A stretch of DNA of 51,407 nucleotides from Nitrosopumilus sp. LS_AOA (GTDB lineage Archaea > Thermoproteota > Nitrososphaeria > Nitrososphaerales > Nitrosopumilaceae), in contig LFLC01000015.1 of NCBI GenBank assembly GCA_001543015.1, positions 1 through 51,407 on the forward strand, in the 5' to 3' direction. The stretch's first letter is position 1, and each line of letters opens with the position of its first letter. The translations under genes and the position numbers were made by a program. Under the pieces are notes generated by a model. It did no database searches, was not told the DNA's origin, and was given only the letters and a program-made list of their open reading frames with translations. This document shows positions 35,550 through 36,077 of this stretch, piece after piece.

Positions 35550-35571
35550 CATTTTATCAAAGAAAAATAAA

Positions 35572-35665
35572 GGCGTATACCCCTAAACTGCAGAACTTTG
35601 AGAGATTTCCTCTCGTGGTCAGTCGTTAAACGCCTGATTGCCTTTTTAGTTCTGCGGGGCTACGC
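35572..35665 (+). ncRNA. RNA candidate 1: long stem with two internal hairpins
   Basis: The segment folds by simple pairing. Outer stem: gcgta (35573-35577) with tacgc (35661-35665), cccc (35580-35583) with gggg (35656-35659), gcagaact (35590-35597) with agttctgc (35648-35655). Inside are two hairpins: gagag/ctctc (35600-35604 and 35610-35614, loop of five) and tcag...ctga (35619-35622 and 35634-35637) capped by cgt/acg. It is GC-rich against its surroundings. A T·G pair at the base of the first hairpin (35599/35615) favours the plus strand. No known family recognised. Confidence 0.6.
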
Positions 35666-35830
35666 TATCCTAATCGCCAGATTTTGTAACTAACGACATC
35701 AATTACTATAAGACATATTGATATTTAACATTTTGTGGTGAATAATTCAACAAACTATCTAATTCATTGTAATTCATAAATGTATGAATTTTCGAAAAAA
35801 TTAGAATTTTGAGCACAAAATATCAAGAAA

Positions 35831-35840: not shown

Positions 35841-35860
35841 CAGTAAAAATCACATTACTA

Positions 35861-35962
35861 TGTTAATTGGTTAGATTGGAAATACATTGAATACCATTCG
35901 ATCTAATTTTGAATGATTAAAGCGGTTTGACATTCAAAATGGATTGCTGATACCAATTAACA
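35861..35962 (+). ncRNA. RNA candidate 2: three-way-junction element
   Basis: The ends pair perfectly: tgttaattggt (35861-35871) with accaattaaca (35952-35962). Inside, tagat (35872-35876) pairs with atcta (35901-35905), extended by tgg/cca, and attttgaatg (35906-35915) pairs with cattcaaaat (35931-35940) across a 15-nt loop. All stems are perfect. The element is AT-rich, so it could also be a small inverted-repeat DNA element. No protein frame is present. Confidence 0.5.
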
Positions 35963-36077
35963 ATACAAACTCTTTTTCCAGCTAAGAATTGTTGATGAAA
36001 ATAATGAACATACAAAAATGGTTCAGATAAAAATGGTCAAAGCAAACTATTTTTTGAGGAACTTAAAATCATAAAAT

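Follow-up and report, generated by a model that had tools for sequence, protein, structure and literature searches.

The structured element at positions 35572-35665 of the window (the whole stretch of DNA that was analysed, 51,407 nucleotides of contig LFLC01000015.1 from Nitrosopumilus sp. LS_AOA) is, as judged from sequence comparisons, part of a new RNA family that is nearly universal in Nitrosopumilaceae. The family nearly certainly corresponds to an RNA predicted to be read from the minus strand and to carry a short ORF. The reading that we favour, with moderate confidence, is that of a free-standing, translation-gated, trans-acting small RNA gene; the gating and the action in trans are its less certain parts, and fall short of the near certainty attached to the minus-strand RNA with its ORF. 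The interval 35572-35665, originally predicted to be the whole RNA, covers only a three-way junction; the gene model is ~142 nt long, runs from 35699 to ~35558, and has the following features:

35558..35699, minus strand: predicted transcript of the small RNA gene, ~142 nt, with the 5′ end placed from the box A spacing (26 nt) and the 3′ end from the U-rich stretch
35722..35728, minus strand: promoter box A, with minus-strand sequence TTAAATA (plus-strand TATTTAA), at a fixed offset among copies
35707..35711, minus strand: TATA-like -10 motif, TTATA on the minus strand, a probable promoter-proximal element (conserved 'tata' in the upstream consensus)
35670..35699, minus strand: leaderless mini-ORF of nine sense codons plus a stop, with start, stop and length kept among copies; translation predicted
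35573..35665, minus strand: three-way junction core, with covariation and compensatory changes
35573-35577/35661-35665, 35580-35583/35656-35659 and 35590-35596/35649-35655, minus strand: P1 of the junction core
35600-35604/35610-35614, minus strand: P2 of the junction core, with the loop GNNNU on the minus strand
35619-35622/35634-35637 and 35624-35626/35630-35632, minus strand: P3 of the junction core
35558..35571, minus strand: U-rich 3′ end (CCUUUAUUUUUCUUU), probable transcription terminator, with a raised T fraction among copies

The fold described in the original prediction was recovered. The RNA fold of 35560-35680 on the plus strand had an energy of -39.3 kcal/mol (z = -4.3), and none of 200 shuffled sequences was equally stable; it consists of an interrupted outer stem of ~17 pairs (GCGTA/TACGC, CCCC/GGGG and GCAGAAC(T)/(A)GTTCTGC) enclosing two hairpins. 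The 142 nt of the element have a G+C content of 43% and lie in AT-rich surroundings. The minus strand of the same stretch folded almost as well (-36.7 kcal/mol, z -2.8), since the stems are near-perfect inverted repeats, and the strand must therefore be settled by other evidence. The predicted transcript itself (35699-35558, minus strand) folded at -44.0 kcal/mol (z -3.6), giving a 5′ hairpin over codons 2-9 and the three-way junction.

The stems of the junction core are conserved as RNA stems, as follows from four observations. Compensatory changes were found at 9 pairs in the genus alignment and at 29 of the 33 base pairs in an alignment of 47 divergent copies. In the latter, 90.8% of the cells were paired, compared with 37-44% for slid partners; its covariation score was reached by none of 500 shuffles, and the predicted stem pairs headed the ranking of all column pairs by a background-corrected G-statistic. 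The compensatory changes named in the original prediction as support for the element were thus present, and the stem-breaking drift that would have spoken against the element was not seen. The only unpaired positions kept were the P2 loop, the ATG, the stop and the -10 motif, the last of these with conserved columns 203-204.

BLASTN searches of 100 relatives showed the element to be present across the genus, as a rule in two copies per genome. Two covariance models, R1 (built from 46 copies) and R2 (built from divergent copies), were used for wider searches. In a sample of 250 genomes of the class, model R2 had matches in 138, every one of them in Nitrosopumilaceae, which made up ~146 of the sampled genomes; the usual number of copies per genome by covariance model was 2-3. 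In a sample of the phylum, all 30 family members were positive and none of the 170 other genomes was, and when 20 genomes of other families were searched with looser filters the best E value of R2 was 0.3. The core pattern is present in named records such as Nitrosopumilus salaria, Nitrosarchaeum and Ca. Nitrosomaritimum. The pattern also occurred in two MAGs labelled Nitrososphaeraceae by their submitters, with mini-ORFs of the type found at the second locus described below; we take these labels to be loose naming. A viral origin was rejected, the exact core pattern being absent from viral contigs, as was a mobile element or MITE, the copies lying at few syntenic loci with unique flanks.

Three kinds of locus were recognised, the names of whose genes we presume from their sequences and general knowledge. 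At the first, as in the window, the element lies downstream of purP; at the second, it begins 2-13 nt after a gene for a small secreted protein and precedes an SDR gene; the third, which is more divergent, lies between aroA and aroC. The initial description of the element as lying downstream of purP thus holds for the locus in the window, but this is only one of several, paralogues sit elsewhere, and purP and the RNA gene converge. Among 131 loci, the 3′ neighbour was convergent in 118, so the element is free-standing and not the leader of another gene. A ribosome-dependent attenuator or terminator controlling read-through into what follows it, whether a gene or sequence antisense to the neighbour, is accordingly very unlikely: it would fit the anatomy of a leader ORF, hairpins and a U-rich end, and in 10 loci (e.g. 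L096, L112 and L039) a co-directional gene starts within 250 nt, but the prevalence of convergent neighbours, the different genes at different loci (purP, small secreted protein, aroA) and the lack of any shared set of starvation codons are at odds with it. A riboswitch or attenuator of the neighbour was rejected on similar grounds, as neighbours vary by locus and are mostly convergent.

Some copies departed from the common type. In the aroA-aroC subfamily (L163, L164, L165; L122, L123, L126, L134), P2 was rebuilt to the GAAAAGCATTCTC type and the mini-ORF layout was unchanged, the frames reading, for example, MQKRVNYTA or MQKRANFTA, each followed by a stop. A similar subtype was seen at another locus, beside a sirtuin-like gene (L120, L121, L124, L125). 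Tandem copies ~310 bp apart were found on one contig (L102 and L128; contig C184 of G289), with different mini-ORFs (MPMIVTPIN and MPIVPTVD, each ending in a stop).

The evidence for the minus strand came mainly from the flanks. When those of 105 copies were placed side by side, conservation was seen to extend past the fold to ~35730, over the mini-ORF and the promoter on the minus strand; box A stood at a fixed offset in 99 of the 105 (84 + 15). Of 138 copies, 124 had an ATG at the offset expected from the model, and a TTAAATA-type box was centred exactly 26 nt before it in 99 of these (within 40 nt in 114). The first in-frame stop followed nine sense codons in 117 of the 124 copies and eight in six, against a shuffled mean of 21 of 124 in the 8-9 range. 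Codon 10 was TAA, TAG or TGA in 94% of copies (117/124), all three stops being used, while six of the other seven had the stop one codon earlier, a 3-nt change in length; codons 2-8 were nearly stop-free over the 124 copies. Between the stop and the first GCG of P1, 117 of the 124 copies had a gap of 3 or 4 nt. On the far side of the fold, the T fraction on the minus strand was raised for ~15 nt (138 copies). In the window, the mini-ORF reads ATG TCG TTA GTT ACA AAA TCT GGC GAT TAG, specifying MSLVTKSGD, and its codons 2-9 form an RNA hairpin.

Consensus fold energies were lower on the minus than on the plus strand in three alignments, and most wobble pairs agreed. In P1 and P2, A.C on the plus strand (equivalent to G.U on the minus) outnumbered G.U on the plus strand by 32 to 9, favouring minus, and in the genus alignment the wobble pairs of the ORF hairpin favoured minus by 52 to 9. 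The exception was P3. Its wobble pairs leaned towards plus by 25 to 14 in the divergent alignment, an excess due mainly to the outermost pair; in the genus the count for plus was 114 to 13, the lower pairs of P3 there being better described as conserved sequence than as a proven helix. The initial ORF-hairpin columns of the divergent alignment leaned towards plus by 39 to 10, chiefly through an outermost pair that is unused in the minus-strand fold. A TATA-like box (TTTTAATA), as noted in the original prediction, is present on the left side of the element. Of 105 copies, however, no more than 4 have a plus-strand TATA-like motif at any one offset, making it a poor promoter candidate. A plus-strand small RNA transcribed from this box was therefore rejected, and we regard it as highly improbable: the plus strand does fold well (z -4.3) and the P3 wobble pairs favour it, but its TATA position is not conserved, the second-locus element begins only 2-13 nt after a stop codon, within a coding neighbourhood, and the ORF, box A, the U-tract and the consensus energies all point to the opposite strand.

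The RNA is also not plainly non-coding, a point absent from the original prediction: ahead of the fold lies a leaderless ORF, conserved among copies and 8-9 codons long. The length and stop of this ORF are fixed and its peptide is loose. The 117 copies specify 71 sequences, in which positions 2, 5, 6 and 8 are very variable, although some types recur by locus (MSLVxKSGD many times at the purP locus, MPKDIIPID 13 times at the second), and variability is not clearly greatest at third codon positions. The case for translation rests, for these reasons, on the start, the stop, the length and the promoter spacing. One alternative is that the minus-strand RNA is non-coding, the ATG and stop going untranslated and the 5′ hairpin and flanks being kept for some other reason. 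This would agree with the coincidence of the ORF with a hairpin, at least 5 of whose 7 pairs form in 84 of 117 copies, and with the third codon positions not being specially variable; structure alone, however, does not predict that codon 10 should be a stop in 117 of the 124 copies and that six of the remaining seven should have it one codon earlier, and we consider this explanation improbable. A somewhat better, though still unlikely, alternative is that the product is the nonapeptide, made from a very short leaderless mRNA for which the three-way junction would serve merely as stabiliser or terminator. The fixed start, stop and length of the ORF and the recurrence of certain peptides within a locus type speak for it, while the diversity of the peptides, and the fact that it is the RNA core rather than the ORF that is shared and homogenised among paralogues, speak against it.

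This homogenisation was evident when paralogous loci within one genome were compared. In G022, G044 and G055 the cores were 95%, 92% and 97% identical, while the ORF and promoter stayed distinct; over 16 genomes the effect was significant for the core (p = 0.0015), and no such effect was found for the ORF or the promoter. As the core is homogenised between paralogues and the ORF and promoter are not, the comparison suggests that the loci share an RNA effector domain, preceded at each by a leader of its own.

The favoured reading, that of a translation-gated RNA acting in trans, would work as follows. From 5′ to 3′ the parts are a box A placed 26 nt ahead of the ATG, an 8-9-codon ORF, a gap of 3-4 nt, the three-way junction, which a GC-rich stem closes, and a U-rich stretch. 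Transcription would start at the ATG itself, yielding a leaderless message; for leaderless archaeal messages, an RNA that starts at its own AUG is normal. A ribosome would then translate the short frame. A ribosome terminating on a stop codon covers roughly a dozen nt past it, so at the stop of the mini-ORF its leading edge would lie over the 5′ strand of P1; because of this overlap, ribosome occupancy and the closed fold would be mutually exclusive. The simplest purpose of this arrangement would be to make the active fold depend on translation of the RNA's own mini-ORF. The three-way junction would be a shared effector domain, putatively binding protein or RNA, and the mini-ORFs, which differ by locus, would supply the input, reporting ribosome or amino-acid status, or would provide 5′-end protection. 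We tentatively entertain the further idea of an 'attenuator without a gene', in which each passing ribosome opens or closes the fold and paralogues share the effector fold but differ in their mini-ORFs. If this further idea were true, the sea's most abundant ammonia oxidisers would carry a free RNA that senses translation. Nitrosopumilaceae are widespread and very abundant marine ammonia oxidisers, and the layout of the RNA family (promoter, leaderless nine-codon ORF, structured RNA) is fixed and unusual. Annotation pipelines overlook ORFs this small and lineage-specific RNAs alike. Cultured strains of the family exist, making the transcription start, the ribosome footprint and the fold directly testable.

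As the original prediction held, the structured RNA found no match among known families: at the gathering score, Rfam 15 matched only the tRNA of the window, leaving the element unmatched on both strands, and at E up to 10 it gave two weak snoRNA matches, both outside the element. No conserved unpaired C/D boxes and no 3′ ACA box, as would mark guide RNAs, were present, the 3′ end being U-rich. A tRNA-like domain with a tag ORF, as expected of tmRNA, was not seen either, ARAGORN finding only tRNA-Asn in the window. The position of a 5′-UTR riboswitch, before co-directional genes of one pathway, does not match that of the element, whose neighbours vary and are mostly convergent; nor does that of an attenuator sRNA, before a co-directional biosynthesis gene, given 118 convergent 3′ neighbours in 131 loci.

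In the microcin C7 gene mccA, a 7-codon ORF is followed by structured RNA, which serves to protect the message or to terminate it. The element resembles it in having a very short ORF ahead of structured RNA, but no modification genes were noticed among its neighbours, the C-terminal residue of the mini-ORF peptides is not a fixed Asn, and its RNA core is far more conserved than its peptide. The closest working analogue is the leaderless attenuator sRNA rnTrpL of the Sinorhizobium meliloti trp operon (rnTrpL/peTrpL). This RNA begins directly with the ATG of a 14-codon ORF; it carries Trp codons, is split off by attenuation before trpE(G), ends in a terminator structure and, once released, acts in trans and may double as a small leaderless message (PMC7298713). 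The element is alike in that it is predicted to be a small RNA beginning at the ATG of a short ORF and having a terminator-like end. Unlike the bacterial rnTrpL, it is archaeal, free-standing and mostly convergent with its neighbour, its ORF has 8-9 codons and no fixed regulatory codon, and its core is an unrelated three-way junction. In the archaeon Haloferax volcanii, small RNAs with ribosome occupancy have been described, a few of which encode small proteins; these form no single structural family, and no fixed mini-ORF before a conserved fold has been reported for them (PMC12482152). Their ribosome occupancy is known, whereas that of the Nitrosopumilaceae element is predicted only. In the open literature searched, little was found on small RNAs of Nitrosopumilaceae and no report matched this RNA family, whose transcript may nevertheless have been sighted earlier; in the main text of Weinberg 2010, neither a Cenarchaeum nor a Nitrosopumilus motif is named.

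A second conserved and structured RNA-like element, divergent from the first, was seen in the same intergenic region at 35860-35985 on the plus strand. It has no Rfam match. A TATA-like AATATATTTT lies upstream of it, its outer stem is formed by GTTAATTGG and CCAATTAAC and encloses hairpins, the loop ATTAAAGCGGTTTGA is conserved, and the element ends in a T-run. It was 72-94% identical in ~40 loci of the purP type, and the energy of its consensus fold was -54 on the plus strand, compared with -44 on the minus strand.
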